This document shows, one piece after another, positions 42,953-59,230 of a stretch of DNA of 64,000 bases (position 1 is its first letter; each line of letters begins with the position of its first letter). Origin of the DNA: Bdellovibrio bacteriovorus str. Tiberius (GTDB taxonomy: Bacteria; Bdellovibrionota; Bdellovibrionia; Bdellovibrionales; Bdellovibrionaceae). Where the stretch lies: contig NC_019567.1 of the NCBI RefSeq assembly GCF_000317895.1, forward strand, positions 2,790,001 to 2,854,000, given 5' to 3'. The notes under the pieces are model-generated. The model was not told where the DNA came from and made no database searches. It saw only the letters and a list, made by a program, of their open reading frames with translations. The translations under genes and the position numbers were made by a program.

Positions 42953-43273
42953 ATGGCATTTGGAATTGTTCATTTTTTCCCGAACGGCACAAAACAACAA
43001 TACGACGCCACCTTGGCGGCTGTGCATCCGGACCGAAGCACATTGCCCAAAGGTCAGCTGTATCATGCCGCCGGAGAGTCTGACGGTGGATGGACCGTCA
43101 TCGCGATCCATGATTCACAGGAAAGCTGGGAAGAATTCCGCGATGACGTTCTGATGCCTCGCCTGTCCAAAGGGATCCAAGGAGGCTTCACCACACCTCC
43201 GCAAGAGCAGAGCTTTGAGATTTACTATGAAAAAGAAATCCGCCAAAGTGCGGGACGCGAAGCCAGTTTGTAA
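42953..43273 (+). CDS. Small protein, probable dimeric alpha/beta-barrel fold
   Basis: A 106-residue cytoplasmic protein. The pattern GIVHFFPNGTKQQYDATLAAV, GGWTVIAIHDSQESWEEFRDDVLMPRL and EIYYE resembles small ferredoxin-like (dimeric alpha/beta-barrel) proteins, which include monooxygenase-like and stress-responsive families. No catalytic motif identified. The GAGGAG ribosome binding site is clear. Its stop directly abuts the stop of the convergent phosphatase gene. Confidence 0.7.
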   Translation: MAFGIVHFFPNGTKQQYDATLAAVHPDRSTLPKGQLYHAAGESDGGWTVIAIHDSQESWEEFRDDVLMPRLSKGIQGGFTTPPQEQSFEIYYEKEIRQSAGREASL

Positions 43274-43864
43274 TTAAGTGGTTAGAGGCAGATTCAGTTC
43301 ACGAATCTGCAACCCCTCACGGCTTGAATACATCAGCACTTGGGCGCAGTCTTTTTGGATTTTAAAGGGACGCTTGGAATTCAAGTCCCAGCGGTGAGCC
43401 ATTGCCAAGGCTACCAAAATAACTCCCTTATGGGTGACGACCACGGAATCTTTGTGCCGCAGCTCAAGCTCGTCCAGCCAGGATTCCAAACGATCGGCCA
43501 CCTGCTGGTAAGTTTCTCCCCCCGGCGGCCCCGAGTCCCACCCCTGCCAACCATAGGACGGCGGTGAAAAATCCTGTCCCTGACGGATACTTTCTACAAA
43601 CTCACCTTCCCAGCGGCCAAAATCCGTCTCGATCAGACGAGAATCAACATGAACAGGCCGTTCCGGAAACAAAATACCGGCGGTTTCCCGCGCTCGTTGC
43701 AGAGGGCTTGAGAAAAGATCATAGTGAATCCAACGTTCCGTCAAATTCCACCTGCCAAGATCATTCTTCGCAGCTTCCGTCAGAGGAATATCCGTGCGCC
43801 CCTGATAACGATTCAGGTCGTTCCACTCTGTGGCGCCGTGACGGATAAGAACGATTTCAATCAT
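43274..43864 (-). CDS. Histidine phosphatase superfamily protein
   Basis: A 196-residue protein with the catalytic VLIRHGATEWNDLNRYQGRTDIPL start (His9 phospho-acceptor), SSPLQRARETAGIL, and the second His in VVTHKGVILVAL. It belongs to the phosphoglycerate mutase-like branch that includes CobC and sugar-phosphate phosphatases. It is shorter than GpmA and lacks its insertions, so glycolytic mutase activity is unlikely. Substrate unknown. Divergent from the glycan operon. Confidence 0.88.
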   Translation of the reverse strand: MIEIVLIRHGATEWNDLNRYQGRTDIPLTEAAKNDLGRWNLTERWIHYDLFSSPLQRARETAGILFPERPVHVDSRLIETDFGRWEGEFVESIRQGQDFSPPSYGWQGWDSGPPGGETYQQVADRLESWLDELELRHKDSVVVTHKGVILVALAMAHRWDLNSKRPFKIQKDCAQVLMYSSREGLQIRELNLPLTT

Positions 43865-43943
43865 ATTGAATTCCCTGAAAAATTTCCCATGGAAAACCCA
43901 TTGCTGGGCACGTGTTTCATTGGCGAGTATATTGCGCTTTCTT

Positions 43944-45743
43944 ATGTGGTCGCAATATCGTTTTTTACAAAAGGAACTTCTGAAGCAAAAGGAGCTGCTC
44001 GCTCTTTGTTGCGTGATTCTTTTTGTGCAGTCACTGCTGCTTGTGGCCTTTCCACTGCCGGTTCGCGTGGCTCTGGATATGGCGCTGACTCCGGGAGCAC
44101 GTGTTGATGATGTCTCTACAATCCTGGGTGTTGAACTAAGTCATCTGACGATTTTGATTTTTGCGTGTGTCGGCAGTTTGACCATCGGCCTGCTGATGAC
44201 GACGTTTGAATTTCTGGATGAACGCTTCACCAATCGCAGCATCGTTCGCCTGGTCAACAACATGCGCCTGCAGCTGCTGGGTGATTTGCTGTCCCGCCAG
44301 TTTGCTTATCTGGAAAGAAAAATCAAAGTCGATATCCTGGGTCGTGTTTCCGGGGACACTCAGAATCTGGAGCTGTTTGTTTCCACCAGCCTGGTTGTAG
44401 CTTTCAGATCCATCCCCAGTCTTTTGTTCGCCGTCGTGTCAATGTTCATCATCAACACGCGGTTTGCTTTTTTGATGCTGCTGTTGATCCCGGCGTTCTA
44501 TGCTTCGATCACCTTCCTTTCCAAAAAAATCAAACAGCACGAAAAAGAACATCGTTCCCGGACAAATCTTTTTGAACATGAATCTCTGCAAGCTCTGTCG
44601 TCGCTGTCGCTGTTAAAGTCCCTGCAAGGTGAAGGCGAAGCCCTGCAACGACTGCAGGACCGCCAACAGCAGATCAATCAAACCTTCCTGCAAAGCCGGT
44701 TCTTCACCGCATTACTGAATTCAGTTTTCTCAGGTTCCCGCCACATCATCCGTGCGTTGGTTCTGTTGCTGGGTGGATACGCCATTCTGCAGGGACAGCT
44801 GACCCTGGGAAGTCTGTTTGCCTTCGTCAGCTATCTTGAAGCTTTGAACCGCCCGGTGGGTGAAATTGCCAACTTCATTTCCCGCTATGGCAAAGCTTCG
44901 GCCAGCCTGGAACGCATCCAAGAGCTAAGTCAGGAACAATCCGCCTTCCCCGAGAAAGACGGCACCTTGTCTTTGCCATCATTGGCAAGCACTGATTCCG
45001 TTATGAAATTTAACAACGTGGCTTTTGCCTATGGCGAATCTGCCCCCCTGTTTACCGGCCTGAATCTGAATCTGCAGCGCCGCCAGCTGGTGGCGATTGT
45101 CGGTCCTTCTGGCGTTGGGAAAAGTTCGTTCATCAAATTACTAAACCGTCTGCATGATCCCAGCGAAGGCGTCATCACCCTGACCAGTGTTGCCATCAAT
45201 GATCTTGCTTTACGTGACTTGCGCCGCCACGTTTGTCTGATTTCCCAGGATCCGTTCTTTGTATCCGGCACTGTACGCGACAATCTGCTGCTGGCTTTGC
45301 CAAGCCTGCCGACGGATGAAGACCTGTGGCTGGCCCTTGAGAAAGTGAACGCCACTGAATTTGTGAAGGCCTTGCCTCAAGGCCTTGATACTTTGATCGG
45401 TGAATCGGGACTTCAACTGTCCGGTGGTCAGAGCAAACGACTGAGCCTTGCCAGAGGCTTCCTGCGTGCAGAGACCGCCTCGGTCTTCGTCTTTGATGAA
45501 CCCACCTCCGGGCTTGATCCGGTTTCCGCGGCTCACGTGATCAGTTCCTTGCGCGAACTCGCTGACAAAAAAGAATTGGTTCTATTCTCGACCCACCGGG
45601 TTTCAGAATTTGAAATTGCGGATCAGGTGTTGTTCTTTGCAAAACACCAAGTGCCTGCTTTGGCTTCCCATGAAAGTCTGCTTAACACCAACGCCACCTA
45701 TCGCGAACTGACCCGGCAAGAAAGCAACGAGGTGCCGGTATGA
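43944..45743 (+). CDS. ABC exporter, fused membrane and ATP-binding domains
   Basis: A half-transporter of about 599 residues. Six membrane helices span roughly 1-310 (first LALCCVILFVQSLLLVAF). The nucleotide-binding domain has Walker A GPSGVGKSS, Q-loop ISQDPFFVSG, signature LSGGQSKRLSLARGFL, Walker B FVFDEPTSGLD and the His switch STHRVSEF. It resembles lipid, glycolipid and peptide exporters (MsbA/PglK-like). The longest frame starts at a TTG (43866), two bases from the divergent gene; the ATG at 43944 leaves room for promoters and gives a normal length, but the ribosome binding site is weak. First of seven overlapping genes; likely exports the glycan product. Confidence 0.85.
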   Translation: MWSQYRFLQKELLKQKELLALCCVILFVQSLLLVAFPLPVRVALDMALTPGARVDDVSTILGVELSHLTILIFACVGSLTIGLLMTTFEFLDERFTNRSIVRLVNNMRLQLLGDLLSRQFAYLERKIKVDILGRVSGDTQNLELFVSTSLVVAFRSIPSLLFAVVSMFIINTRFAFLMLLLIPAFYASITFLSKKIKQHEKEHRSRTNLFEHESLQALSSLSLLKSLQGEGEALQRLQDRQQQINQTFLQSRFFTALLNSVFSGSRHIIRALVLLLGGYAILQGQLTLGSLFAFVSYLEALNRPVGEIANFISRYGKASASLERIQELSQEQSAFPEKDGTLSLPSLASTDSVMKFNNVAFAYGESAPLFTGLNLNLQRRQLVAIVGPSGVGKSSFIKLLNRLHDPSEGVITLTSVAINDLALRDLRRHVCLISQDPFFVSGTVRDNLLLALPSLPTDEDLWLALEKVNATEFVKALPQGLDTLIGESGLQLSGGQSKRLSLARGFLRAETASVFVFDEPTSGLDPVSAAHVISSLRELADKKELVLFSTHRVSEFEIADQVLFFAKHQVPALASHESLLNTNATYRELTRQESNEVPV

Positions 45744-46669
45744 AGCACATCCACTGCCGTCCGGTTCGCAACAGGTGGCTGAAAGCCCTTTATGAAAACA
45801 ATCTGGTGGAAGCTTCCACCAGAACCCGCCTTTACGCCGATAAGCTTTACCTGTATCAAGAGCTTGAAAAGACCTTGGGGCCGAAGCTTCATCTTTACCA
45901 TCCTAAAACTTGGGGGCTTAAGGCGTTCTTGGCCAAATACGACCTGACGTCGCCAGATTCTTTGCAAGACACCGCTCGTATTGAACAGGCGCTGCTTCAA
46001 GAGTTCCCCACCAATGTGATTTTAAAACCTGCGGCAGTGATCAACACGGCGGGTGAAACAGGTTTGTATCTGTTTTCCCGCGAATCGATCCTGCAGGCTT
46101 TCGAAGATCAAAACAAAGATCTTGTTCAAGCCTGTCTGCGCGAAACTGTTTACGTGTCTTCCCTGCTGGGAATTTTGGCCGGCGGTGAAGAATTCATTCT
46201 GCAAGAGCACATCGCCGCTTTAGCTGGTTACCCGGTGGTCACCAAAACCCGTCACTATCAGGAAGTGCGCATTCACACCTTTGAAAACGAAGTTCTTAAA
46301 GGCGCGTCTTATTCCCGCTGGCAAAAAAATGAAATCAAAAATTCCCAAGACTTTTATCGCGCGCAGGATTTCGTTCAGGAATTCCTGAATCAGCTGCCGG
46401 CAGAGCTGCTAAAGGGTCAAGCCTGGGGGCTGGATTTGTTAATTTTTGAAAACGGCACCGTGCGTATTCTTGAAATCAACACCAACCGCGGAGCCCAGGG
46501 GCAATGGACGGGATTCCTGTCCCGTCCGGAACTGATGGGGGCTTACACCCGCCTCATCGAAAAGAAAAAAGGTGTTCGCTTTGCGGGCCTTTCAGGCATC
46601 ATGCTGCGCTTGAATCTCGGAAACATCACCAAGCATCTGAAAAAGAAATATATTGAAGGTATCCGATGA
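45740..46669 (+). CDS. ATP-grasp-like enzyme of the glycan operon
   Basis: A 309-residue protein. VILKPAAVINTAGE (Lys and glycine-type loop), FILQEHIAALAG, EVRIHTFENEVLKGASYSRW and GLDLLIFENGTVRILEINTNRGAQG follow the order of ATP-grasp landmarks: ATP-binding Lys, Glu-containing strand and the final metal-binding Glu-x-Asn. ATP-grasp enzymes join a carboxylate to an amine or thiol through an acyl phosphate. Within a glycan operon it could attach an amino acid or peptide to a sugar, but the substrate is unknown. Overlaps the genes on both sides by 4 bases. Confidence 0.7.
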   Translation: MKHIHCRPVRNRWLKALYENNLVEASTRTRLYADKLYLYQELEKTLGPKLHLYHPKTWGLKAFLAKYDLTSPDSLQDTARIEQALLQEFPTNVILKPAAVINTAGETGLYLFSRESILQAFEDQNKDLVQACLRETVYVSSLLGILAGGEEFILQEHIAALAGYPVVTKTRHYQEVRIHTFENEVLKGASYSRWQKNEIKNSQDFYRAQDFVQEFLNQLPAELLKGQAWGLDLLIFENGTVRILEINTNRGAQGQWTGFLSRPELMGAYTRLIEKKKGVRFAGLSGIMLRLNLGNITKHLKKKYIEGIR

Positions 46670-47355
46670 AACAGAAATTCCTCTTCTTCCGCAACGATGA
46701 TCTTGGTTGGATGCCGGCTCAATTTGAACGTCTGATGGACCTTTTCCGCAAGCATGAACTGACCTTGTGTGCGGCGGCCATTCCCCTGTACTGCAACGAC
46801 AGCTACAAGAAAAACGCCTTTGCCTCAGATAGAAAATATCTGGAAGTTCATTCCCACGGATATTCCCACCTGGATCACCAAAACCAAGGCAAGAAAGCCG
46901 AATTCGGCGATCAGCGTGATCCCGAAAGCGTTCGTCATGAAATGCAAAAGTCACTGGACATGACCCGGGATCTTTTCGGTGATCTTTACTTTGCTGCGTT
47001 TACTCCTCCGTGGAACCGTATCGAGGACCGTTTTCTGCCGATCTTAAAAGAAGTCGGCTTTAAAGTTCTATCCCGTGATGGCGACAAGTCTGCTGCTATC
47101 GACGGCCTGATGGATCTTAATATCCATGTGGACGTGCACACCTCAAAAAAAGGCAAGCTGACCAGTCCTGAGGCTATCTGGCAAAGTACTCACGCCCAAT
47201 GGGAGCAGTCAGACCGCTGTGGCATCATGCTTCACCACAAGCACATGGAAGATCAGGACTACGCCGTTTTGGATCTGTTCCTGGCACAGGTGAAAGAACA
47301 AAATATCCCGGTCCTTTCCTATAAGGAAATCTGGAACGAGGGCCGCCATGTCTAA
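46666..47355 (+). CDS. NodB-like polysaccharide deacetylase-family protein
   Basis: A 229-residue cytoplasmic-looking protein with no signal peptide. FRNDDLGW gives the Asp-Asp motif, EVHSHGYSHLDH the metal-binding HxxxH and FTPPWNRIEDRFLPIL a motif 3-like Pro-Pro-Trp-Asn. LHHKHM supplies the late His. These match the carbohydrate esterase 4/NodB fold that removes N-acetyl groups from amino sugars with a divalent metal. Probable role: deacetylate a sugar precursor before export. It overlaps the preceding gene by 4 bases and the next by 8. Confidence 0.8.
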   Translation: MKQKFLFFRNDDLGWMPAQFERLMDLFRKHELTLCAAAIPLYCNDSYKKNAFASDRKYLEVHSHGYSHLDHQNQGKKAEFGDQRDPESVRHEMQKSLDMTRDLFGDLYFAAFTPPWNRIEDRFLPILKEVGFKVLSRDGDKSAAIDGLMDLNIHVDVHTSKKGKLTSPEAIWQSTHAQWEQSDRCGIMLHHKHMEDQDYAVLDLFLAQVKEQNIPVLSYKEIWNEGRHV

Positions 47356-48505
47356 AAAGCGTGTCGTCTTTTATTCCCATGACACTTTTGGACTGGGGCA
47401 CATCCGCCGAACCCAAAAGCTGGCCAATGAGATTGCCCAGAATGATCGTTCGATCCTGATCATCTGCGCGTCACCGAAAGCCAGTTCCTATTCGTCTTCC
47501 CAAGGGATTGAATACCTGAACCTGCCGGGATTCACCAAACAGGTCACAGGGCAGTACGTTCCGCGCAGCCTGAATATTCCCATTGATGAATTCGTGAACC
47601 TGCGTGCATCTTTGATCTTAAGCGCCGTGCGCGCCTTCCAGCCCGATGTCTTTATCATCGACAAAGAACCGCTGGGCGTAAAAAAAGAACTTCTGCCTGC
47701 GCTGGAATATCTGAAAAAGCAGAAGAAATGCAAAGTCGTCTGTGGCTTCCGCGATATTCTGGATGAAAAAGAAGCGGTCCAGGATGAATGGCAACGCCGT
47801 GACACGGCGGATTCTTTACGCCGTTATTTTGACCATGTGCTGATCTATGGTGAAAAAAACGTTTATGACTTCGCCGCAGAGTATGGCCTTGATCCGGACC
47901 TGGCGGAAAAACTTCTGTATGTAGGTTATGTTCACCCCCAGGAAAATCTGAATCACAGCGATTTCAAGATGCCGTTTGAAAACAAACTTCCGAACGTCAC
48001 CCTGACCCTGGGTGGTGGCGGCGATGGTGACGAGATCCTGAAACTTTATACGGAACTTCTTTCCCGTCGTGGCAGCGAGCTAAAATTCAATTCCTATGTT
48101 CTGACCGGGCCTTTCGCGAACCCTGAATCTGTCAAAGCCCTGCAGGCGATTGAAGTCCGATTGCCTCAATTGAGCGTCAAAGAATTCGTATCAGACAGCT
48201 TCTCGGTTTTTCAACAAAGTGACTTGGTCGTTTCCATGGGTGGCTACAACACCATGACGGAACTGGTCAGCATGGGACAAAAGCCGATCATCCTGCCACG
48301 AGTAAAACCCCGCAAAGAACAACTGATCCGGGCTTCTGTCTTCCAAAAACGCGGGCTCTGTGACTTCCTGGCCCCAGAGGCTCTGACCCCGGAATCCCTC
48401 GAACAGCTGATCACCCAGCGTTTAAGCAGCCCCCGGAAAGCCCCGCACTTCCCGGCCGAAGGCTTGGCACAGTTCCGTGACCTATTCAGTAAAGGCATCT
48501 TATGA
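47348..48505 (+). CDS. GT28/MurG-like glycosyltransferase (first of a pair)
   Basis: A 385-residue GT-B protein. An N-terminal VVFYSHDTFGLGHIRRTQKLANEI motif (Gly-Leu-Gly-His-x-x-Arg) marks the acceptor-side domain, PDVFIIDKEPLGVKKELLPALEYL lies in the middle, and the C-terminal nucleotide-sugar domain has TLTLGGGGDGDEIL and LVVSMGGYNTMTELVSMGQKPIILPR. This matches MurG-like/GT28 proteins. It resembles the gene at 49743-50891 in layout and motifs. Cytoplasmic; transfers a sugar from a nucleotide donor. Four-base overlap with the next gene. Confidence 0.85.
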   Translation: MSKKRVVFYSHDTFGLGHIRRTQKLANEIAQNDRSILIICASPKASSYSSSQGIEYLNLPGFTKQVTGQYVPRSLNIPIDEFVNLRASLILSAVRAFQPDVFIIDKEPLGVKKELLPALEYLKKQKKCKVVCGFRDILDEKEAVQDEWQRRDTADSLRRYFDHVLIYGEKNVYDFAAEYGLDPDLAEKLLYVGYVHPQENLNHSDFKMPFENKLPNVTLTLGGGGDGDEILKLYTELLSRRGSELKFNSYVLTGPFANPESVKALQAIEVRLPQLSVKEFVSDSFSVFQQSDLVVSMGGYNTMTELVSMGQKPIILPRVKPRKEQLIRASVFQKRGLCDFLAPEALTPESLEQLITQRLSSPRKAPHFPAEGLAQFRDLFSKGIL

Positions 48506-49746
48506 AACAAACCGCCATCGGCTTTGTCCTAAAAGGCTATCCCCGAGTCAGCGAAACCTTCATCGCTCAGGAAATCTATTTACTGGAACAACAGGGCTTT
48601 CAAATTGAAATCCTGTCCATGCGTAAAGCGCGCGAACCGGAACGTCAGCCCATCGTGTCCCTGATCAAAGCTCCGGTCACCTACATCCCTGAATACATCT
48701 GGGCCGAGTGGGGTACAGTTCTAAAAGAAAACCTGCGCACGCTGCGTCTGCATCCAGTTCGCTATCTGCGCTACTTGACCGTAGCGTTGACCCGCACCGT
48801 GGTTCAACGTGACGACAGCCCGATCAAACGCTTTTTGCAGGCGGGCTGGTTGATCTCTAAAAAGAATCTGGGCACCGACAGGTCCCCTATTCATCATTTA
48901 CATTCACATTTTGCGCACACTCCGACCGAACTGACCTGGTACATGTCCCGCGTTGCGGGGCTTAAGTATTCCATTTCTGCTCATGCCAAGGATATCTACA
49001 CCATTTCTGAAAAAGAACTGGTCGAACGCATCAACAGTTCTGAATTCATTATGACCTGCACCAGCTATAATCATGAATTCATGCAAAAGCTTCCGGCCGT
49101 GCAACCGCAAAAGGTTCACAAGGTCTATCACGGCATCAATCTGGAATCCTTCAAACCGACCTTTGCGAAAAGCTATTCCACAGAAGAACTGTCCCGCTTT
49201 GTCAGCGTCGGCCGTCTGGTCGAGAAAAAAGGCTATGACGTCATCTTCACTGCCCTGCAGGCTTTGAAAAAAGACGGCGTGAAATTCAGCTATGACATTT
49301 ACGGTGCCGGTGAAATGAAAAAAGAATTGCTGGCCCTGCGCGAGCAGTTGAATCTGGAAACTGAAATTCAGTTCCATTATACCGCCACCCATCCGCAGAT
49401 CATTGAGCGCTTCAATCAGGGTGGTATTTTTATCTGCGGATCAAAGCTGACGGCCAGCGGGGATCGCGATGGTATTCCAAATACCGTGGCCGAAGCCATG
49501 TCGATGGAACTTCCAGTTATTGCCACCAATGTGTCGGGCATTCCCGAACTTATCACCCACGGCAGTGACGGCCTTTTAATCGCAGAAAAAGACCCGGTGC
49601 AATTGACTCAAGCCCTGAAGGACTTGCTTCAAAACACCGAAAAGGCCCGCAGTCTGGGACTGGCCGCCCGTCAAAAAGTGGCGCAGGTCTTTGACAGCTC
49701 AAATCTGATCAATAACTGCTCCCGCCTGCTGGGACCTTACCGATGA
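48502..49746 (+). CDS. GT4-type glycosyltransferase
   Basis: A 414-residue GT-B protein. The N-terminal LKGYPRVSETFIAQEIYLLEQQG start is typical of exopolysaccharide GT4 enzymes, followed by HLHSHFAHTPTELTWYMSRV, YSISAHAKDIY and KVHKVYHGINLESFKP. The C-terminal donor domain has SVGRLVEKKGYDVIFTAL and GIPNTVAEAMSMELPVIATNVSGIPELI, the Glu-x7-Glu region. Retaining mechanism expected from the family. It lies between the two MurG-like genes with 4-base overlaps. Confidence 0.92.
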   Translation: MKQTAIGFVLKGYPRVSETFIAQEIYLLEQQGFQIEILSMRKAREPERQPIVSLIKAPVTYIPEYIWAEWGTVLKENLRTLRLHPVRYLRYLTVALTRTVVQRDDSPIKRFLQAGWLISKKNLGTDRSPIHHLHSHFAHTPTELTWYMSRVAGLKYSISAHAKDIYTISEKELVERINSSEFIMTCTSYNHEFMQKLPAVQPQKVHKVYHGINLESFKPTFAKSYSTEELSRFVSVGRLVEKKGYDVIFTALQALKKDGVKFSYDIYGAGEMKKELLALREQLNLETEIQFHYTATHPQIIERFNQGGIFICGSKLTASGDRDGIPNTVAEAMSMELPVIATNVSGIPELITHGSDGLLIAEKDPVQLTQALKDLLQNTEKARSLGLAARQKVAQVFDSSNLINNCSRLLGPYR

Positions 49747-50891
49747 CGAAACCTCGTCTGCTGTTTTATTGTCAGCATCTGTTGGGCATCGGGCATTTGA
49801 CCCGGTCCCTGGCTATTTGCGAAGCGCTGAATGAAGACTTTGAGGTTCACTTCCTGCAAGGCGGACCGGATGTTGGAAAAACACTGAAGCACCCGTCCTT
49901 TCATCATCATTTTTTGACACCGCTTTTGATGCGCGAATCAGATTGCAGTCTGTATGACCCGGCCGGCGTCAAAACCGCTGAAGAAATCTTTCAAGAGCGT
50001 CAACAGTCTATCAACACCTTGCTAGGTGATCTGCCTTTTGCCGCGGTGATCACCGAACTGTTCCCGTTTGGGCGCAACAAGTTCAAAGGTGAAGTCATGG
50101 ATCTGATCCAGAAGGCCCGTACGGTCAATTCGATGGTGCACGTGTCCTGTTCGATTCGCGATATCCTGGTTGAAAAAAAGGACTCGGTCGAACGTGAAAT
50201 GAAAATGGTCCGTCTGGTTGAAGAAAACTACGACGCCGTCTTTGTTCATTCCGACCCGCAGATTCTGCGCTTTGAAGAAACGTTTTCCCAGGCAACCCGT
50301 CTGCAAGAAAAATTATGCTACACAGGTTTCGTGACTGAAAGTCCGAAGGCCAAACACAGCTTAGGCCGCCGCAACGAAATTCTAATCAGCATGGGTGGCG
50401 GCGTTGTCGGTGATGAGCTGGTGTTGGCGGCCCTTGAAATCATGCCGTCCCTGCCGGAATACCTGTTCCGGGTGGCACCGGGGCCTTATGCCTCTGAAGC
50501 ACTGAAGAAAACTCTTGCCGAAAAAGCGGCGAACAATCCGCAACTGCGAATTGAACCCTTCTTGAACAATTTCGAGGAAGAGCTTTCGCAGGTCGCCCTT
50601 TCCATCAGTCTTGCTGGCTACAACACCATGATGAATATCCTCAACACCCGCACGCCGGCTTTGGTGTATCCATACATGGCCAACATTGAACAGAATCTGC
50701 GCGCGACCCGTATGGCCGATCAGGGTCTGCTATCGGTGATCTATGAAAAGGATCTGACCCCGGCAGATCTGCTTAAGAAAGTAAAAAATCAACTGCAGCA
50801 CCAATGGCCTTCACTTGAAGTCGGTCTGAAAGGTGCTAAACAAACATCGAAGTTGTTATCGAATATACTTCAAGAAAGGACGAATTCATGA
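49743..50891 (+). CDS. GT28/MurG-like glycosyltransferase (second of a pair)
   Basis: A 382-residue GT-B protein. LLFYCQHLLGIGHLTRSLAICEAL at the N-terminus and ILISMGGGVVGDELVLAALEIM plus ISLAGYNTMMNILNTRTPALVYP in the C-terminal half parallel the gene at 47348. The pair probably arose by duplication. Each would add a different sugar or use a different acceptor, by inference. It overlaps the flanking genes by 4 bases. Confidence 0.85.
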   Translation: MTKPRLLFYCQHLLGIGHLTRSLAICEALNEDFEVHFLQGGPDVGKTLKHPSFHHHFLTPLLMRESDCSLYDPAGVKTAEEIFQERQQSINTLLGDLPFAAVITELFPFGRNKFKGEVMDLIQKARTVNSMVHVSCSIRDILVEKKDSVEREMKMVRLVEENYDAVFVHSDPQILRFEETFSQATRLQEKLCYTGFVTESPKAKHSLGRRNEILISMGGGVVGDELVLAALEIMPSLPEYLFRVAPGPYASEALKKTLAEKAANNPQLRIEPFLNNFEEELSQVALSISLAGYNTMMNILNTRTPALVYPYMANIEQNLRATRMADQGLLSVIYEKDLTPADLLKKVKNQLQHQWPSLEVGLKGAKQTSKLLSNILQERTNS

Positions 50892-51658
50892 TCCGTCTTC
50901 TTTTGCCTCTGGTACTTATTTCAGGACAAGCTTTGGCGCTGGGCCAAAGGCTTCCAGATGAAGGGGCCCCCGTATTTATTTCTGACTTTGAAAAAGGCGG
51001 CTTTAAAGGCTGGGATATCAAACGCATTCCGCAGGATCATTCTGCCGAAATCCAAAGCGACGTGGTTCGCTCTGGCAGCAAAGCTGTGCGCTTTGAACTG
51101 CGCAACAACGAAAATGTTTCAGGCGGCTTCCGCTCGGAATTGCGTGATCCCTACTTTGCACCATTGTTCCAGGACACATGGTACCACCTGTCGGTGTTCG
51201 TGCCTGAGCACTTCCCGATGACCCTCACGAACTCGTGTGTTTTTGCCCAGTGGCATGATCAGCAAGATCCAGGGGATGGCGACCGCAATCCGCCAATTGC
51301 CATTCGTCTGCGTGGCACGGGACAACTGCACATTACGGCTCGCTACAGTGCTGAAAAGATCCAAAATGGAAAACCGGGACCTGAAGTATTGTTATATGAA
51401 GACGTCCGCTTCCAACGAAATGAATGGAATGATTTTATCGTGCGTGTTCACTGGTCCTATCTGAATAACGGCCAGGTGCAGATCTGGAGAAACGGAAAAA
51501 TGATCGTCGATTATCGCGGCCCGATTGGCTACAATGACGACAAAGGGCCTTACTTCAAGATGGGCGTTTACTGCCGGGAAACTCCGGTGGAACCTTTGGT
51601 CGCTTATCACGACAACTATCGTCGCGCACCGACATCAACTGAATTGAAACTGAAATAG
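50888..51658 (+). CDS. Secreted polysaccharide-lyase-like protein
   Basis: A 256-residue protein with a signal peptide (LLLPLVLISGQALALG). The mature part has a concanavalin-like jelly-roll pattern: FISDFEKGGFKGW, SGSKAVRFELRNNENVSGGFRSELRDP, CVFAQWHDQQD, FIVRVHWSYLNNGQVQIWRNGKMIVDY and YFKMGVYCRE. This resembles the heparin-lyase-like Polysacc_lyase family, which binds or cleaves uronic-acid glycans. As last gene of the glycan operon it may trim, release or bind the exported product. It ends 22 bases from the convergent macB gene with no terminator visible. Confidence 0.78.
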   Translation: MIRLLLPLVLISGQALALGQRLPDEGAPVFISDFEKGGFKGWDIKRIPQDHSAEIQSDVVRSGSKAVRFELRNNENVSGGFRSELRDPYFAPLFQDTWYHLSVFVPEHFPMTLTNSCVFAQWHDQQDPGDGDRNPPIAIRLRGTGQLHITARYSAEKIQNGKPGPEVLLYEDVRFQRNEWNDFIVRVHWSYLNNGQVQIWRNGKMIVDYRGPIGYNDDKGPYFKMGVYCRETPVEPLVAYHDNYRRAPTSTELKLK

Positions 51659-51680
51659 AGATTTAAAAGAACAGGCCCGG

Positions 51681-53663
51681 CTATTCGTAGCGCAGGGCCT
51701 CGATCGGTGACAGCTCGGAAGCTTGTTTCGCCGGCCAAAGTCCAAAGACCAGACCCACCACAAACGAAAACACAAACGCCACCACAACAGAACTCATCGA
51801 AAATAACGTCGCCCAATCCAGCAGCTCGCCCGCCGCGACAGACAATAGATATCCCAGAACGGTCCCAACGACCCCGCCGAACAGACCGATCAATACGGAT
51901 TCCACCAGGAACTGAGACAGAATATCCAGACGCTTGCCACCAATGGCTTTACGCAAACCCACTTCCCGGGTGCGTTCTTTCACGGATACAAACATCACGT
52001 TCATAATACCAATACCACCCACCAGCAACGCCACCACTGAAATCGCCTTTAGCATGGACGAAATAATGCCCGTGGACTGGGTGTACAGTTCCTGGATGTC
52101 GTTCATATTGCGAATGTCGTAATTGCGAGCTTCACCGTTTTTAATCTGACGATGGGAATACATCCATTCATCAACGACGTATTCAGCCCGCTTCATCGCC
52201 GGCCCCGAATCCGCCGCTTCAATTGTCATCACAGCAACACTGCGACGGCCCAACAAACGGTGCATGCCCGTTTTCAAAGGCACGATCAAAAGATCATCAC
52301 GGTCTTTGTAAGCCGTCGCCCCTTTTCGCGGAAGCAGTCCAATAATCTGATAATCAGCGCGATTGATACGAATGATCGCACCCACCGGGTTGCGATCCCC
52401 AAAAAGATTCTGGGCCGTGGTCTGGCCAATTAAAGCCACACGCGCCTGCAAACGGTTTTCATCATCGGTAAAGAAGCGCCCCATCACCGGAATAAAATTC
52501 TGCATGGCCTCGATAGAAGGTGTCGCCCCCATCAGTTCCACCACGGCATTTTTATTCCCGTAAGACGCCGTCACGTCCCCGTAGACCTGCGCATCGACGC
52601 TCTTGATTGCAGGCACGCTGCGCGAGAACTGTTCTAAAGACTCATAGTCATGCAATTCGAATTTGCGTAAGCTTTCGCTGGCCCCTTTGGCGCTTTTGGG
52701 ATTTACCGCGCGCACGTTCAGAATATTAGTGCCCAGGGATGAAATCATATCACCAACAGCTTTTTTAGCCCCTTCCCCGATAGCGACCATCGCCACAAAC
52801 GAGGCAATGCCGATCATCACTCCTAAAGTAGCCAGGCTGGTACGCAACAAATTCAGGGTCAATGACACCCAGGCCATGCGCAGGTTTTCACGCAAGCGTT
52901 TCCACTGAAATCGCTCTGCGCGTTCTTTCGTCGCAATGACTTCCGGATTTTCACAGCGAATGCGGGGTTCTTGCAGGGTTTCATCCCCAACCACCAGACC
53001 GTCTTTGATTGTGATCAAACGACGGGCTCTTTTAGCCACTTCCGGTTCGTGGGTGACCAGAATGATGGTTACACCTTTTTTGTTCAAATCATCCAGCAGG
53101 CCTAAAACTTCTTCTGTCTGCTGGGATGAAATATTCCCGGTCGGTTCATCGGCAAAAATAATTTTGGGATTGTTCGCCAAGGCACGGGCAATTGCCACGC
53201 GCTGCTGCTGACCACCGGACAACTGATGCGGCCGGTGGGTCAAACGGTGCCCCAGATCAACGGCTTTTAAAAGCTCAATCGCGCGCTCCTGCGGATTTTC
53301 GCCACCGGAATAAATGATTGGCAAAGCCACATTGTCTATACAGGTGGATCTTGGCAGCAGATTGAAGAACTGAAAAACAAAACCAATCAGATTCGACCGC
53401 AGTTCCGCCAACTGATCGTCATCCAGACCGTCAATGTTCTGACCATTCAGATGATAGTCTCCACCTGTGGAACGATCCAACAAGCCCAGAATCTGCATCA
53501 AAGTGGACTTGCCTGATCCCGAAGGACCCATGATCGCCACGAATTCGCCCTGGTGAATATCCAAGTTCACACCCGCAAGGGCTGAAACCTCAATAGACTC
53601 CCCTTCACCGACTTCGGTGACGTATTGTTTCTTGAGATTGCGAACAGAAATCAAAGGCTTCAT
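51681..53663 (-). CDS. macB: MacB-type ABC transporter (ATPase plus permease)
   Basis: A 660-residue protein. The N-terminal ATPase (about 1-235) has Walker A GPSGSGKST, signature LSGGQQQRVAIARAL and Walker B IIFADEPTGN; the family usually continues GNLD but here reads GNIS. A membrane helix lies near 275-300, a large periplasmic domain spans about 305-525, and three C-terminal helices (near 530-650) include the GGIGIMNVMFVSVKERTREVGLRKAIGG motif. MacB-type mechanotransmitters push substrates through a MacA-TolC channel. It abuts macA (one-base overlap). Confidence 0.93.
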   Translation of the reverse strand: MKPLISVRNLKKQYVTEVGEGESIEVSALAGVNLDIHQGEFVAIMGPSGSGKSTLMQILGLLDRSTGGDYHLNGQNIDGLDDDQLAELRSNLIGFVFQFFNLLPRSTCIDNVALPIIYSGGENPQERAIELLKAVDLGHRLTHRPHQLSGGQQQRVAIARALANNPKIIFADEPTGNISSQQTEEVLGLLDDLNKKGVTIILVTHEPEVAKRARRLITIKDGLVVGDETLQEPRIRCENPEVIATKERAERFQWKRLRENLRMAWVSLTLNLLRTSLATLGVMIGIASFVAMVAIGEGAKKAVGDMISSLGTNILNVRAVNPKSAKGASESLRKFELHDYESLEQFSRSVPAIKSVDAQVYGDVTASYGNKNAVVELMGATPSIEAMQNFIPVMGRFFTDDENRLQARVALIGQTTAQNLFGDRNPVGAIIRINRADYQIIGLLPRKGATAYKDRDDLLIVPLKTGMHRLLGRRSVAVMTIEAADSGPAMKRAEYVVDEWMYSHRQIKNGEARNYDIRNMNDIQELYTQSTGIISSMLKAISVVALLVGGIGIMNVMFVSVKERTREVGLRKAIGGKRLDILSQFLVESVLIGLFGGVVGTVLGYLLSVAAGELLDWATLFSMSSVVVAFVFSFVVGLVFGLWPAKQASELSPIEALRYE

Positions 53664-54607
53664 TATTTCTTCTTGGCCCCTACGCTGAATGGCAGACTTT
53701 TGCTGTCATTTTCATATGACAATGGCTTGTACAAAACCTGATCTGCAACGGTCAGACCCGCCAAAACTTCGACGGACTCGCCGTTGGATTCACCCAAAGT
53801 GACTTCCCGTTCAACATGTTCACCACCCGGGCCAACCAATTGCAACTTCACGGTCGTGTTTTTACGTCCTTCAGACAGCCAGCTTGGCAACAGCAGGGCA
53901 TTTTCTTTTTTCGCAATCAGATAGTCCACGCTGGCAGACATGCCGGATTTGATTTTATCCGGGAAGTCGGTGGAGGCCGTGATGAACACGTCATAAGTGG
54001 TCACATTGTTAGTCACCGTGCTTTGCTGGCCAATGCGTTCCACCACCCCGCTAAAGCGCTCGCCCCCGTAGGCATCAATTCCCACTTCCACGGTTTGACC
54101 GAGATGAACTTTGGCAATATCGGTTTCATCCACCTTCGAGATCACAATCAGAACGTCAGAAATCTCGAATAAGGTATTTTCCTGAGTCACCGACTGACCT
54201 TGATTCACATTGCGCAGAACCACAGTCCCCGTCGCTGGAGCCAGAATCGGTGTAGGACGATACATTTCTTGCAGGCGCACGCGTTCTTCAGCAGGGATGC
54301 CCTGGTGCAGGGAATCCATCAACGCCACCCGGTCACTGGAACTTAAAAGCGCCAGTTGCTGCCCTTTACGGACCTTGGCGCCTTCTTCCACCACAACACG
54401 GTCCACGCGACCCGCGATCGGAGTGTTCACCACGACTTTGTTTTTCGGAGTCACGGAACCATTGGCTGTGACTTTCACCACCAGTTCTCCGGTGCTTGCG
54501 GTCAGCACCTTCCAGGCACTTCTTTCGGAAGTGCGGGAAAACTTATACCCGGCAAAAAGCAAAAGAGCGACCGTTGCCACTCCTGCCATAATCAATGTCT
54601 TTTTCAC
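53663..54607 (-). CDS. macA: MacA-like periplasmic adaptor protein
   Basis: A 314-residue inner-membrane-anchored adaptor with N-terminal helix IMAGVATVALLLFAGYKF. The first half of the biotinyl-lipoyl-like domain reads KVTANGSVTPKNKVVVNTPIAGRVDRVVVEEGAKVRKGQQL and the second half PILAPATGTVVLRNVNQGQSV; beta-barrel segments follow. The helical hairpin between the halves is very short (about 30 residues), much shorter than E. coli MacA. It bridges MacB and the TolC-like protein encoded next to it. Confidence 0.88.
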   Translation of the reverse strand: MKKTLIMAGVATVALLLFAGYKFSRTSERSAWKVLTASTGELVVKVTANGSVTPKNKVVVNTPIAGRVDRVVVEEGAKVRKGQQLALLSSSDRVALMDSLHQGIPAEERVRLQEMYRPTPILAPATGTVVLRNVNQGQSVTQENTLFEISDVLIVISKVDETDIAKVHLGQTVEVGIDAYGGERFSGVVERIGQQSTVTNNVTTYDVFITASTDFPDKIKSGMSASVDYLIAKKENALLLPSWLSEGRKNTTVKLQLVGPGGEHVEREVTLGESNGESVEVLAGLTVADQVLYKPLSYENDSKSLPFSVGAKKK

Positions 54608-55851
54608 TGTTCCTCCGTTACGGCCAACAGTCTTTCAAGTTCGATGCGACTTTCCAGGGTGTCGCGCAGACTTTGCAGATAATCGCGTTCACTGGTGATC
54701 ATTTTGGTCTGTGCCTGATCCCAGTCCGAGTATTTGCGAACACCCAGTCGATACTGTCTTTCAACCGTTCGCGACCACAGATGAGTCGCTTTGACTTCAA
54801 GTTCTTTAGCTTTTAGATATTTAAGATTCGCACCGAAAAGACTGCGCGCTTTTTCAACATTTCTCTGCAAATGCGTGCGCGCGTCCTTCAGATTGAATTC
54901 CCGGGACAGTGCCACGGCCCGGCTCTGTCCTGAGCGATTGACGGTGGAAAAACCCTCAAACAACGGAAGGCTTAAAGTCAGACCGTACTGGTTTTCCTGC
55001 ACTGTTGATTGGTCTTCGGGTTTTGCTTTCGCCCACTGCACACTGGCCTTCAAAGATGGCAAATAGCCGGACTTCTGAATCGCGGAATCAGCCCACGCTT
55101 CATCCACCTGATCTTGCAACAGCATCAGACGCGGGTGATTGTCCGTCAGTGGAGTGTTGATTTGCGAATTTAGCAGCACATCAATGTCGTCGACCCATTT
55201 CGTGTCTATAGGCAGACTTTCCCCCAACAAGGCTTCGATTTCAGCCATTGCCGCGACATAGTTCTGATTTTCCAAAGCCAGGGTGGCTTTGGTGATTTCA
55301 ACATTGGCCCGGGACAGTTCCACTGACCAAAGGGCTTCAACTCCATTATTGTATTTGATTTGCACCACCGAGGTTTGATCCTGCTGCAAACGCAAAAGTT
55401 TGTTCCAGGTTTCTGTCGCGCGCTGGGAAATCAAAATACGCAACAGAGCCCGGCGAAGAGTGTAGCGGACTTCGGCTTTCTGTTCTTGCAGCTGGGACAG
55501 GCTTTGACGTTCCTGGAAGGAATACTTTTTAACTGTATTATAGGTAGAAAAACCATTGAACAGATTCCAGTTCGCTTTCACTCCATAGGTGTCAGTGGTA
55601 ATATCAGACCCCAGAAGTCCGCCCTCCTGCTCTTGGCGGGTGCGGTCAGCAAACAGGTACACTGACGGCAGGAAGTCAGACTTTGCGGCGTCTTTTTGGT
55701 AAGAAGCTGCTTCTTTCTGTTTTTCAAAGGCTTGAATTTCTGCGTTCTGAGAATAGGTTTTTTTCAACAACGTCGACCAATCCCAGACGACCGCCGCCTG
55801 GGACACAGAAGAAATCGTCAATAAAAGAACCAGAACCGCTTTAGTCATCAA
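54604..55851 (-). CDS. TolC-family outer-membrane efflux protein
   Basis: A 415-residue protein with a signal peptide ending SVSQA and the two-repeat OEP layout: long helices (NAEIQAFEKQKEAASYQKDAAK, and DNHPRLMLLQDQVDEAWADS in the second half) alternate with short strands. GLTLSLPLFEGFSTVNR is a typical OEP strand motif. It forms the trimeric outer-membrane exit duct for MacAB. It overlaps macA by 4 bases and the upstream gene by 4 bases. Confidence 0.9.
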   Translation of the reverse strand: MMTKAVLVLLLTISSVSQAAVVWDWSTLLKKTYSQNAEIQAFEKQKEAASYQKDAAKSDFLPSVYLFADRTRQEQEGGLLGSDITTDTYGVKANWNLFNGFSTYNTVKKYSFQERQSLSQLQEQKAEVRYTLRRALLRILISQRATETWNKLLRLQQDQTSVVQIKYNNGVEALWSVELSRANVEITKATLALENQNYVAAMAEIEALLGESLPIDTKWVDDIDVLLNSQINTPLTDNHPRLMLLQDQVDEAWADSAIQKSGYLPSLKASVQWAKAKPEDQSTVQENQYGLTLSLPLFEGFSTVNRSGQSRAVALSREFNLKDARTHLQRNVEKARSLFGANLKYLKAKELEVKATHLWSRTVERQYRLGVRKYSDWDQAQTKMITSERDYLQSLRDTLESRIELERLLAVTEEQ

Positions 55852-56432
55852 AGAGTTTCATCCTCTACCAAAGTAAAATCACCCTGCAGACGAACCGTCG
55901 GCATCAGAAAGCCTTTTTTATAAGTGATACTGATCCCCGACCAAACAAAGCGACCTTGAGATTTCGCCAGCAGCGCTTCACGCTGAACTGGATCCAGCGT
56001 CACAAAGAAACGAATGGATTGAACGCCATCAGCCTGTTCACCGAAAGAGTCCGGGGACAACGAATACACCGCACGTCCATTGACGTTGGCTTCGCGAGTC
56101 AGCCAGTGGGCGCCGACTTTCAGTGTTTTACCAACAGGATGGCCAAGCAGCACAGTTTCATCAAACAATTGAACTGGCATTGGCAGATTAAAAGTGAACT
56201 TTTTAAGCCCGTATTTATGGGTGCAAGCCTTGATACGCAAACGGGTTTGCACTTGATTCGCCGCCGGCTCTGCAAAGGACATATTCAACTTGCTGCTAAG
56301 GGAATCACCGTCTTCAGTGCAAGTATCCGCGATAAGATCATTTTCTTTCAAAAAATACTTATATACCGGAGTGGCCATCGCCATTCCCGGCACCACCAAC
56401 AGAGCCAAAGCAAAATTAAACGTTTTCAGCAT
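55848..56432 (-). CDS. Secreted protein of unknown function
   Basis: A 194-residue protein with a signal peptide (FALALLVVPGMAMATP). Two cysteines near 38 and 69 may pair. The rest is beta-rich (VQTRLRIKACTHKYGLKKFTFNLPMPVQLF, VWSGISITYKKGFLMPTVRLQGDFTLV). It overlaps the gene on either side and lies between a DUF4105/NlpC-like gene and the tripartite pump, so it is probably part of the same function. No family recognised. Confidence 0.68.
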   Translation of the reverse strand: MLKTFNFALALLVVPGMAMATPVYKYFLKENDLIADTCTEDGDSLSSKLNMSFAEPAANQVQTRLRIKACTHKYGLKKFTFNLPMPVQLFDETVLLGHPVGKTLKVGAHWLTREANVNGRAVYSLSPDSFGEQADGVQSIRFFVTLDPVQREALLAKSQGRFVWSGISITYKKGFLMPTVRLQGDFTLVEDETL

Positions 56433-57831
56433 TGTGGCCTCCTTGACGTTGAATCAGCCCCTGCAGGCGCCGCCAGTTAATAAAGAAGAAATCACGAGGG
56501 AAGACCGGCAAAGCGCGGATGACTTCGCTGGATACGGTGTTGTTACGATAAAGCAAAGTTGGAATCCATCTTCGGGCCGCGACTTCATCAAACGTCGTGT
56601 TTGGCAGCGGATACACACGCAAGCCTTCCACGGGATGACGAGGATTCAGCAAAAGCTCACGATAAGTCAGCACGGTGCTGAATTCCAGATAGCCCTTGTG
56701 ATCAAAGCCTTCAATCCCCGCTTGAGTCAAAACCCTGACAATCCCCTGATTGCAATTGTTCTTAAGCAAGCTGAACTTTTCTTTCGCCGAACCTTGTGCC
56801 GCCGCCAGATTTTCCAGAATGACCAACAAAGTGTCCACTTTGTCTTTGGCCACCATCAAGGTCACACCCACCGACATCGGGGCAATATTCTGATCAGCAA
56901 ACAAACGCAGCTGCTTGCGGAAGAAAGGATTATTAAAGATAAATGCACGGGCCGTGTTAGCACCCTGATTGTGGGCTTTCCAGCCCGTGGCAGAAAGTTC
57001 AAACAGACGACGTCCAATACGCAGGGTGGTGTGCCCCAGCGGACGCCAAAACGGATGATAATTCAGCTCAATCGGAACCAACTGGTTACCAAGAGCCGCT
57101 GCGATCAGTTCTTCGTCTTTTTCAAAGCGTTTTTCTGCGGGAGTTCGCCCCGTAATCTGGAAGGAAAGCTCTTGCCCGGATTCACCGAAAATGCTGAAGG
57201 ATTTTTTCTGAGTCGTCCACTCACCTGCCGCCGGGCTTACAAGGACTCCCCCCTCGGCTAATTCAAACTTTCCAAGAAGCAGACCGGCTTCAAAGGATTG
57301 CATATGTAGATCCGCCAGCTTCCCGGTCACATCGAAAACGACGGCCAGGCCTTTGGCTTCTTTGTTTTTTAAAACCAAGGCGCGCAGGATTTCAGACTGC
57401 CCGGGACGACGCAAAGACACCATGCGGGTTTCCATGCGCGTGTACTTTTCAAACATCTGCTTTGCCGTAAGACTTAAAAGCACATCCAGGCAACCGACTA
57501 ATGAATCCGGAGAATCAAAATAGTGATGCTCGCGAACCACGGCCGGACGGTTTTTAAGACCCAGAGTCTGCATCAGACTTTTCACGCTGAAAGCCAAACG
57601 GACTTTTGCAAGAACTTTATTCACCTGCGGCAGAGTCAATGCTTCCGGAACAGATCCGGTCACTTTACGAACGAAAGATTCTGACCAAATCGCGTTGCGA
57701 TCATAGATCACGTGAACGGAGCCCTTGGCGGAATGGAAGAAGCTCACCTTGGCGTAAGCGCCAAGATTTTGCTGCTTATCAAATACAGCCTTGCAGGTTC
57801 CGTCAAAAATATGACTTTGAGATCTTGTCAA
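56416..57831 (-). CDS. Protein with permuted NlpC/P60- or DUF4105-like His...Cys motif
   Basis: A 471-residue protein. In the C-terminal half GHTTLRIGRRLFELSATGW (His near 267) is followed about 90 residues later by LLKNNCNQGIVRVL (Cys near 358). A His strand preceding a Cys helix is the order seen in circularly permuted NlpC/P60 and DUF4105 (Lnb-like) proteins. The N-terminal half is unassigned. The TTG at 57831 is accepted as start because AGGAG lies six bases upstream; no signal peptide follows it. Role with the pump or glycan genes is inference. Confidence 0.65.
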   Translation of the reverse strand: MTRSQSHIFDGTCKAVFDKQQNLGAYAKVSFFHSAKGSVHVIYDRNAIWSESFVRKVTGSVPEALTLPQVNKVLAKVRLAFSVKSLMQTLGLKNRPAVVREHHYFDSPDSLVGCLDVLLSLTAKQMFEKYTRMETRMVSLRRPGQSEILRALVLKNKEAKGLAVVFDVTGKLADLHMQSFEAGLLLGKFELAEGGVLVSPAAGEWTTQKKSFSIFGESGQELSFQITGRTPAEKRFEKDEELIAAALGNQLVPIELNYHPFWRPLGHTTLRIGRRLFELSATGWKAHNQGANTARAFIFNNPFFRKQLRLFADQNIAPMSVGVTLMVAKDKVDTLLVILENLAAAQGSAKEKFSLLKNNCNQGIVRVLTQAGIEGFDHKGYLEFSTVLTYRELLLNPRHPVEGLRVYPLPNTTFDEVAARRWIPTLLYRNNTVSSEVIRALPVFPRDFFFINWRRLQGLIQRQGGHNAENV

Positions 57832-57844
57832 CTTCGGCTCCTGC

Positions 57845-59230
57845 TTAGTTCAACCACTGATTGCTGATTTCAACGTGACTGCCCGTCTGAACCACACGCT
57901 GGAATGCCGGATCTTTACCAATACTGATATAGTCAAAGCCCTGACGGGCCATATCCACCGGGTCAAAGATATTGCGACCATCGAAAATGACCGGCGATTT
58001 CAACATAGACTTCACTTGAGCAAAGTCGGCGCCTTTGAATTCAGGCCACTCGGTTGCGATCACCAGAACATCGGCCCCCTGCAAAGCCTCATAGAAAGAA
58101 TCCAACAACTGAACGCGGGATTCGAAGCTTAGCAACTTGCGTGCACCTTCCAAAGCAATCGGATCGGCGGCACGAATGCGCGCCCCATAATAAAGAAACT
58201 TTTCAATCAGACGCAAAGCCGGAGCTTCACGCAAGTCATCAGTGCCGGGCTTGAAGGCCAGGCCCCAGATGGCAATCGTTTTTCCTTCCAGTTCGCCTTT
58301 GAAATAGTTCTGAACCTTCTTAAAGAAATGATCATGCTGCTGCAGATTCACATCTTCCACCGCTTGCAGGATGCTCATCGGGCTTCCCAGATTGCTCGCG
58401 GTCTTGATCAAAGCCTTCACGTCTTTCGGGAAACAGGAACCCCCGTAACCAACGCCGGCATTCAGGAAGTGAGGACCGATACGACGATCCATGCCCATGC
58501 CTTTTTTCACCAGATCAATATTGGCGCCGGAAAGCTCGCACACACGGGACAGTTCGTTCATGAAAGAGATGCGCGTCGCCAGCATCGCGTTGGCCGCATA
58601 CTTGGTCATCTCGGAAGAATACACATCCATCACCAGAATGCGGGATTCATCATCCACAAACGGACGGTACAGACTAATGATCAACTGGCGGGCTTCTTCG
58701 CTTTGCACACCCGCGATCACGCGCTCTGGATAAAGGCAGTCTTCCAACGCCGCTCCTTCACGCAGGAACTCGGGATTGGAAACAATTTGAACATCGTACG
58801 AAACACCACGTTCAGCCAGTACCCGCATCACTTCCGCGCGCACGGCCTCGCACGTCCCAACTGGGACCGTGGATTTGACAACGACGACTTTGTCGGCAGT
58901 CATGAAGCGGCCGATGCTTTCAGCAACACTCATCACATAGCGCAGATCCGTGGAACCATCTTCATCAGAAGGTGTGCCCACGGCGATCATCAGAACGTCA
59001 GACGTCTGAACGGCTTCTTCAATGTTCGCAGTGAACGTCAGACGTTTTTTCTGGAAATTCTTTTTGATGAGTTCTTCAAGACCTGGCTCATAGAAAGGAG
59101 CAATTCCGTTATTTAATTTTTCAATGCGCTTCACATCGATATCAGCACACAAAACATCATTGCCTTTTTCAGCAAAGCAGGTCCCGGTGACCAAACCAAC
59201 ATAACCGGTTCCAATAACAGAAATTTTCAT
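57845..59230 (-). CDS. ugd: UDP-glucose 6-dehydrogenase
   Basis: Oxidises UDP-glucose to UDP-glucuronate with two NAD+, supplying uronic acid precursors. About 461 residues with ISVIGTGYVGLVTGTCFAEKG (NAD fold), VVVKSTVPVGT, NPEFLREGAALEDCLYPERVI, ANAMLATRISFMNEL, GVGYGGSCFPKDVKAL (catalytic Cys) and WGLAFKPGTDDLREAPAL. All key residues are present. The ATG at 59230 is preferred, with GAGGGG five bases upstream; the longer frame to 59251 adds seven residues before it. It follows the epimerase gene and precedes a TTG-started gene. Confidence 0.96.
   Translation of the reverse strand: MKISVIGTGYVGLVTGTCFAEKGNDVLCADIDVKRIEKLNNGIAPFYEPGLEELIKKNFQKKRLTFTANIEEAVQTSDVLMIAVGTPSDEDGSTDLRYVMSVAESIGRFMTADKVVVVKSTVPVGTCEAVRAEVMRVLAERGVSYDVQIVSNPEFLREGAALEDCLYPERVIAGVQSEEARQLIISLYRPFVDDESRILVMDVYSSEMTKYAANAMLATRISFMNELSRVCELSGANIDLVKKGMGMDRRIGPHFLNAGVGYGGSCFPKDVKALIKTASNLGSPMSILQAVEDVNLQQHDHFFKKVQNYFKGELEGKTIAIWGLAFKPGTDDLREAPALRLIEKFLYYGARIRAADPIALEGARKLLSFESRVQLLDSFYEALQGADVLVIATEWPEFKGADFAQVKSMLKSPVIFDGRNIFDPVDMARQGFDYISIGKDPAFQRVVQTGSHVEISNQWLN

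Follow-up and report, generated by a model that had tools for sequence, protein, structure and literature searches.

What does a predatory bacterium make with an operon that joins glycosyltransferases (GTs), a deacetylase and a lyase to an exporter, and how does the product leave the cell? The operon in question lies at positions 43944–51658 of the window, the 64,000-nucleotide stretch of Bdellovibrio bacteriovorus str. Tiberius that we analysed (contig NC_019567.1, positions 2,790,001 to 2,854,000; the host genome is a single contig of 3,988,594 bases). A preliminary description of its seven overlapping genes had read them as a locus for an unrecognised exported glycan or glycoconjugate. Our analysis places the operon, as the presumed core of synthesis, inside a cassette gained by horizontal transfer. 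On balance, we favour the reading that this cassette makes an exported, uronic-acid-containing, partly de-N-acetylated glycan, which would travel through a fused ATP-binding cassette (ABC) exporter and then a MacAB–TolC system; we infer the polymeric nature of the product, its sugars, linkage order and length, and the substrate and reaction of every enzyme.

A seven-gene operon within a mobile cassette

The seven reading frames run in one direction (+ strand) with successive overlaps of 4, 4, 8, 4, 4 and 4 bases, as first described, and their order is retained in two other Bdellovibrio genomes with 64–80% protein identity. Because of these overlaps and the kept order, the operon is not a chance arrangement. 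Promoter and terminator counts show no excess over shuffled sequences.

The first gene (43944..45743) encodes an ABC exporter of the MsbA/PglK-like superfamily with fused membrane and ATPase domains (PF00664 and PF00005), in which Walker A, LSGGQ and Walker B are all found; the MsbA and PglK models score below their cut-offs. It is followed by an ATP-grasp-like protein and possible carboxylate–amine ligase (45740..46669; motifs and a weak PF14397 match) and by a predicted deacetylase (46666..47355), which matches PF01522 (25.6 bits, cut-off 23.1) and PF10096 (27.7 bits, also exceeding the cut-off), carries NDD and HGYSH metal motifs, and is assigned on these grounds to the NodB-like (carbohydrate esterase) polysaccharide deacetylases. 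The GT28-like glycosyltransferase GT28a (47348..48505) contains PF04101 (Glyco_tran_28_C) and the signature YSHDTxGLGHxRR...MGGYNT. Its predicted structure is a full-length two-Rossmann GT-B fold (AlphaFold predicted local distance difference test score (pLDDT) 89.6) that matches CalG1 with a Z-score of 28.4 and MurG with 25.7, and the model identifies it as a GT-B glycosyltransferase of the GT1/GT28 clan. Its partner, the EpsE-like GT4 enzyme GT4A (48502..49746; PF00534, E 4e-31), reaches 159 bits with the EpsE model, below the cut-off, and is followed by a second GT28-like enzyme, GT28b (49743..50891; PF04101, E 1e-10). With the MurG model TIGR01133 (lipid II N-acetylglucosamine transferase), the two GT28-like proteins score only 26.2 and 35.5 bits against a cut-off of 250. 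The last gene (50888..51658) encodes a secreted polysaccharide lyase with a hydrophobic N-terminal signal and a PF14099 domain (E 2e-40, 139.5 bits, cut-off 29.9; PL13/PL20-related), predicted to act on a uronic-acid polymer. Pfam bears out the original identification of the ABC exporter, deacetylase, two GT28-like enzymes, GT4 and lyase, but gives the ATP-grasp no significant match.

Comparison with close relatives reveals the edges of a larger unit. Window positions 42803 and 60438 are only 67 bases apart in genome G023, a near-empty site, and in genome G005 the common sequence stops at 43263 and restarts at 60438; the roughly 3.5 kb that separates the two is different DNA and holds two related regulator-like genes (compared as L160). 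The empty or different site in these two genomes therefore places the operon in a block of approximately 17.2–17.6 kb, extending over 43264..60437 as judged against G005 or beginning at 42804 as judged against G023; the interval first described is a real operon, but only part of this unit. It is the empty site, and not composition, that points to transfer of the cassette: GC content is even throughout and shows no transfer signal, and a search of the cassette edges for repeats or a tRNA found none. The site may be an insertion hotspot, as G005 carries another insert there.

Among the 24 Bdellovibrio genomes searched, GT28a, the cassette's close MacB copy and gene 56416..57831 (both below) all occur in the same three and in no others. 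Genome G019 has the identical gene set in the same order at a different chromosomal position, its OmpA marker gene lying about 0.5 Mb off, and in G009 the cassette is split over contigs. This patchy distribution led us to set aside an attack on the prey envelope. A lyase secreted by a predator would suit a system in which lyase and GTs degrade or remodel prey surface glycans during predation, but biosynthetic genes predominate, the block is missing from 21 of the 24 genomes, and the core has relatives outside predators, for instance in cyanobacteria, roseobacters and E. coli plasmids. We therefore treat the prey-envelope modification put forward earlier as speculation, and consider such remodelling highly improbable.

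Predicted uronic acid precursor genes and a tripartite exporter

Several lines of evidence point to uronic acid, as associations rather than as chemistry. On the right-hand side of the cassette (− strand), a predicted UDP-glucose 6-dehydrogenase (57845..59251; PF03721/PF00984/PF03720) matches the UDP-glucose dehydrogenase of PDB entry 2y0e with E 7e-145, and a short-chain dehydrogenase/reductase (SDR) epimerase (59323..60330) matches 5u4q (E 3e-77) and the 6zl6 set (E 1e-56). We take 6zl6 to be UDP-glucuronate 4-epimerase, which is the probable identity of this enzyme. In G019 a second nucleotide-sugar dehydrogenase gene, absent from the cassette of the window, stands immediately upstream of the epimerase gene (L163, 15274–16581). 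The profile of the lyase matches glucuronan lyase 2zzj (E 1.6e-6) and also heparin lyase I. Neighbours of related cores in other bacteria agree: a nucleotide-sugar dehydrogenase adjoins the core in 10 of 69 loci (Bdellovibrionota, roseobacters, Sinorhizobium and enterobacterial/Pasteurellaceae), against a chance expectation of roughly one if a genome has three genes of this kind in every 4 Mb, and is the first gene of the core operon in some roseobacters. The Sinorhizobium meliloti core, too, has a PF14099 lyase in its vicinity, heparinase II/III enzymes occur in Nitrospirota and Nitrosospira loci, and AlgE or OprB porins adjoin the core elsewhere, as do sulfotransferases in some Planctomycetota.

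Convergent with the operon, genes for a MacB-type ABC transporter (51681..53663; PF12704, PF00005 and PF02687), a HlyD/MacA-type periplasmic adaptor (53663..54607; PF16576 and PF13437) and a TolC-type outer-membrane efflux protein (OEP; 54604..55851; PF02321, E 4e-44) follow one another on the − strand with overlaps of a few bases. All domains (MacB_PCD, FtsX and ATPase, HlyD adaptor, and OEP) score above cut-off, and the family assignments identify 51681–55851 as a MacAB–TolC tripartite exporter operon. The close MacB copy (83–84% identity) is confined to the three cassette-bearing genomes; the remaining Bdellovibrio have at most a paralogue at 42–46% identity. The earlier statement that Wza- and Wzc-type genes are missing holds for the seven genes, but the exporter, dehydrogenase and epimerase adjoin them in the same cassette.

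The same module is carried by a distant Bdellovibrionota metagenome-assembled genome (MAG), ‘Oligoflexia bacterium ACE_NR_PROT1’ (L065/L038). There, one operon encodes a histidine phosphatase, the ATP-grasp-like protein, the deacetylase, GT28a (56% identity), GT4 (48%), GT28b (42%) and another GT4; in the opposite direction, ABC exporter, OEP, HlyD and MacB genes form a single tight operon, with a MacB 54% identical to that of the cassette over its first 435 residues. Because all four exporter genes share one operon beside the glycan operon, the tripartite exporter is tied to the glycan genes, and its linkage and that of the precursor genes to the Tiberius operon are plain from the cassette itself.

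The linkage bears on a different account of export, in which an MsbA/PglK-like ABC protein flips a lipid-linked oligosaccharide for a glycolipid or for decoration of lipopolysaccharide (LPS) or protein, and MacAB is an independent, co-inherited efflux pump. Fused ABC exporters of this superfamily do flip lipid-linked glycans, as in MsbA and PglK (whose models fall short of their cut-offs here), and the cassette has no polymerase. Against this account, the family scans of the cassette proteins picked out neither an initiating phosphoglycosyltransferase nor a ligase family, the MacB orthologue of L065 shares an operon with the ABC gene, and the close MacB is never seen apart from the cassette. 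We judge this account improbable.

A histidine phosphatase is also associated with the core. In the window its gene (43274..43864, − strand) is divergent from the operon and encodes RHG...THKG motifs; histidine-phosphatase and CobC-like models all score below cut-off. A phosphatase gene is likewise linked in loci L021 and L065, and in alphaproteobacteria and Desulfobacterota it is itself a member of the core operon.

The pathway that we favour would run as follows. The dehydrogenase would make UDP-glucuronic acid, which the epimerase would convert, probably to UDP-galacturonic acid. In the cytoplasm, GT28a, GT4A and GT28b would link an N-acetylated sugar and the uronic acid into a chain, the phosphatase would strip phosphate from the acceptor or an intermediate, and the deacetylase would liberate some of the amino groups. 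To these sugars the ATP-grasp-like protein may attach a small carboxylate or amino acid, the weakest link of the scheme. The fused ABC exporter would transfer the product across the inner membrane and MacB, HlyD and OEP would pass it out through a TolC-type duct, with the periplasmic lyase trimming or clearing polymer that has gone astray, the part that AlgL plays in the alginate system.

Several observations weigh against this pathway. The cassette has no recognisable gene for a polymerase or for chain-length control, and its three GTs would serve just as well for a short oligosaccharide. The lyase could serve feeding instead of export quality control, and only a minority of the broad family has a dehydrogenase or lyase. 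Searches of Pfam, NCBIfam and PDB with protein 45740..46669 gave nothing significant, leaving its ATP-grasp assignment statistically unsupported. The substrates usually associated with MacAB–TolC systems, moreover, are small molecules and peptides rather than polymers. This last point would suit a small amino-sugar conjugate resembling an aminoglycoside or mycothiol, for which a GT would couple a phosphorylated acceptor with an acetylated sugar, phosphatase and deacetylase would act on the result, the ATP-grasp would add an acyl group or amino acid, and the ABC exporter and MacAB–TolC would export the product. The set of GT, phosphatase, deacetylase and ligase follows the logic of mycothiol and aminoglycoside pathways, GT28a is structurally nearest to GT1 natural-product glycosyltransferases with MurG close behind, and a sister gene type has APH-type kinases. 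The secreted uronate-type lyase and the UDP-glucuronic acid genes of the cassette fit poorly with such a molecule, as do AlgE, OprB and heparinase in related loci, and we consider it unlikely.

Two genes of the cassette lie between exporter and dehydrogenase, both on the − strand. The exported protein 55848..56432 is conserved in L021 and L066 and had no match in a Pfam scan. The 471-residue protein 56416..57831, found only in cassettes, matches no family (PPPDE at E 0.24 only, in the L021 orthologue); its conserved HTTLRIG and NNCNQ motifs lead us to guess at a papain-like fold. In L065, two proteins of no known family (5563–7607) head the phosphatase/ATP-grasp operon, the first with an FGFESE motif reminiscent of amidoligases (Pfam scan only).

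The GT28–GT4 family beyond Bdellovibrio

A genome scan with the GT28a alignment gave at least 587 confirmed stretches, of which the best 80, plus other fetched loci, made up a set of 91. At least 69 of these, from many phyla, contain GT28 and its GT4A partner together, and the two adjoin in most loci. Among the 69, an ABC exporter is present in 34, a histidine phosphatase in 24, a deacetylase in 15, a nucleotide-sugar dehydrogenase in 10, OprB in 7, heparinase II/III in 5 and AlgE in 4. Two layouts dominate. Type A is GT28-GT4A-GT4B-ABC-APH, with OprB in 6, heparinase II/III in 5 and AlgE in 4 of 30 loci; type B is (dehydrogenase)-GT28-GT4A-GT4C-phosphatase-GT28-deacetylase, and six loci show marks of both. 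By its predicted gene content, the block in the window is a type-B core plus the ABC exporter, lyase, ATP-grasp-like gene and MacAB–TolC. In the tree, GT28a stands apart from GT28b, the two layouts cluster, and the Bdellovibrionota GT28a proteins form their own group (99% support by the SH-like approximate likelihood ratio test, a quick method).

Three members of the family add observations of their own. On large E. coli plasmids, one of which also carries a heat-stable enterotoxin gene, a GT28-GT4-GT4-ABC-APH-APH-AlgE-Ugd locus (L047, 1490–11668) has a GT28 gene present in 18 of 5426 complete E. coli genomes, plasmid-borne every time. Aggregatibacter kilianii has a GT28-GT4-GT4-ABC-APH-Ugd locus on a 2.07-Mb contig (L107, 10001–21065); in the tree of GT28 proteins it groups as sister of the version from E. 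coli plasmids. In three Desulfobulbales loci (L095, L096 and L129), the type-B core is followed downstream by genes for an FtsX permease, a MacB-class ATPase and a long protein that contains an M28 peptidase domain, a possible second link of the core to FtsX/MacB-type transport.

The earlier description had read the ATP-grasp beside the deacetylase as a sign that a freed amino sugar is ligated to an amino acid or other carboxylate. Deacetylase and GT28 recur together elsewhere, but in the loci examined only Bdellovibrio and the single Oligoflexia MAG have an ATP-grasp-like gene beside the core. Because the broad family usually lacks it, an amide-linked product is excluded as the core function. 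The protein itself is probably an ATP-grasp enzyme, as its residue pattern is typical of them: relatives have in common K96-P97, GEEFxxQE, ExRxH and D232, to which the cassette versions add E245-x-N247-T-N-R-G, and PF14397 (ATPgrasp_ST) gives a sub-threshold match to residues 221–255 (E 0.04). PDB profile searches with 4 and with 17 relatives returned nothing significant, an hhalign comparison with a single ATPgrasp_ST protein did not reach significance (the best segment pairs both K-P motifs, which carries little weight), and the AlphaFold model, built from two input sequences, failed (pLDDT 41). That it joins a carboxylate to the freed amino group is a tentative proposal, somewhat short of an even chance. 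Longer relatives occur outside the core in other Bdellovibrionota (L006–L011 and L049–L058), mostly with signal-peptide-like N-termini, and in many of them the E245/N247 pair is altered to D/V; an exported family of this kind would be surprising, given how little ATP there is beyond the cytoplasm. The plasmid collection contained no relative.

It is plausible that the GT28–GT4 pair marks a whole pathway family that has gone unrecognised. The more specific proposal is doubtful: that GT28a–GT4A defines a uronic-acid polysaccharide pathway in many phyla, using an ABC exporter without Wza or KpsMT, which Bdellovibrionota have coupled to MacAB–TolC and an amino-decorating ATP-grasp. If true, a single gene pair would make recognisable a large class of polysaccharide loci, none known to be characterised, in settings as far apart as cyanobacteria, the megaplasmids of Sinorhizobium and plasmids of E. 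coli, a polymer would join the substrates of MacAB–TolC-type export, a surface coating would be explained in a genus without Wza, and a predator considered as a living antibacterial would have strain-specific surface chemistry. In the open-licence literature searched, which is weak and limited evidence, we found no characterised locus with the gene content of the cassette, in line with the earlier statement that it matches no standard capsule or O-antigen locus. The S. meliloti locus tags smb20804/05, a guessed match for which an effect on a Kdo capsule is reported (PMC5539429), were dropped as a candidate, as no annotation links them to the GT28 gene.

Comparison with known systems

The individual protein families are known; their combination is missing features by which the Wzx/Wzy, KpsMT and synthase pathways are defined. 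Closest in gene content are two groups of loci for which the same literature gave no characterisation. The Roseobacter/Azospirillum operon GT28-GT4-GT4-histidine phosphatase-GT28-deacetylase (six loci, L035, L043, L044, L103, L105 and L130) shares GT28a, GT4A, phosphatase, second GT28 and deacetylase with the cassette, in one operon that is in some cases led by a dehydrogenase gene. It differs in having an extra GT4C and neither ATP-grasp nor MacAB–TolC, and often lies beside an ABC importer set instead of an exporter. The GT28-GT4-GT4-ABC-APH-(AlgE/OprB)-(Ugd) cluster of cyanobacteria, Planctomycetota, Nitrospirota, Aggregatibacter and E. coli plasmids (L047, L093 and L107) has the GT28–GT4 pair and the ABC exporter family in common with the cassette and, in some cases, Ugd, a heparinase II/III lyase or a porin, whereas APH-type kinases replace the deacetylase and ATP-grasp, and a beta-barrel porin replaces the TolC duct.

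Capsules of group 2 (KpsMT) and of the Wzx/Wzy/Wza type resemble the cassette in combining nucleotide-sugar genes, GTs and export. The cassette nevertheless has no Kps families, neither a KpsMT-type ABC-2 transporter nor KpsC/KpsS, its ABC protein being a fused PF00664–PF00005 protein, and no Wzx flippase or Wzy polymerase Pfam family appears among its scanned proteins, to which that search was limited. Wza (PF02563, Poly_export) is absent from the genome of the window and from all 24 Bdellovibrio genomes, and was detected in 4 control genomes. Tiberius also lacks the capsule-type cluster bd1677–1702 of strain HD100 (Hobley et al., PMC3539863).

Among synthase-dependent systems, of which a membrane-embedded GT2 synthase is the mark (alginate, cellulose and poly-N-acetylglucosamine type), the cassette has no counterpart of that enzyme, its GTs being only GT28-like and GT4. 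The alginate system makes a uronate polymer and has a periplasmic lyase (AlgL) and a dedicated outer-membrane exit (AlgE), three themes shared with the pathway proposed for the cassette, but it relies on a GT2 membrane synthase. With MacAB–TolC pumps, finally, the cassette shares MacB_PCD, FtsX and ATPase domains, the HlyD adaptor and the OEP; it differs from them in that these genes are linked to glycan synthesis and that the substrate is presumably a glycan.

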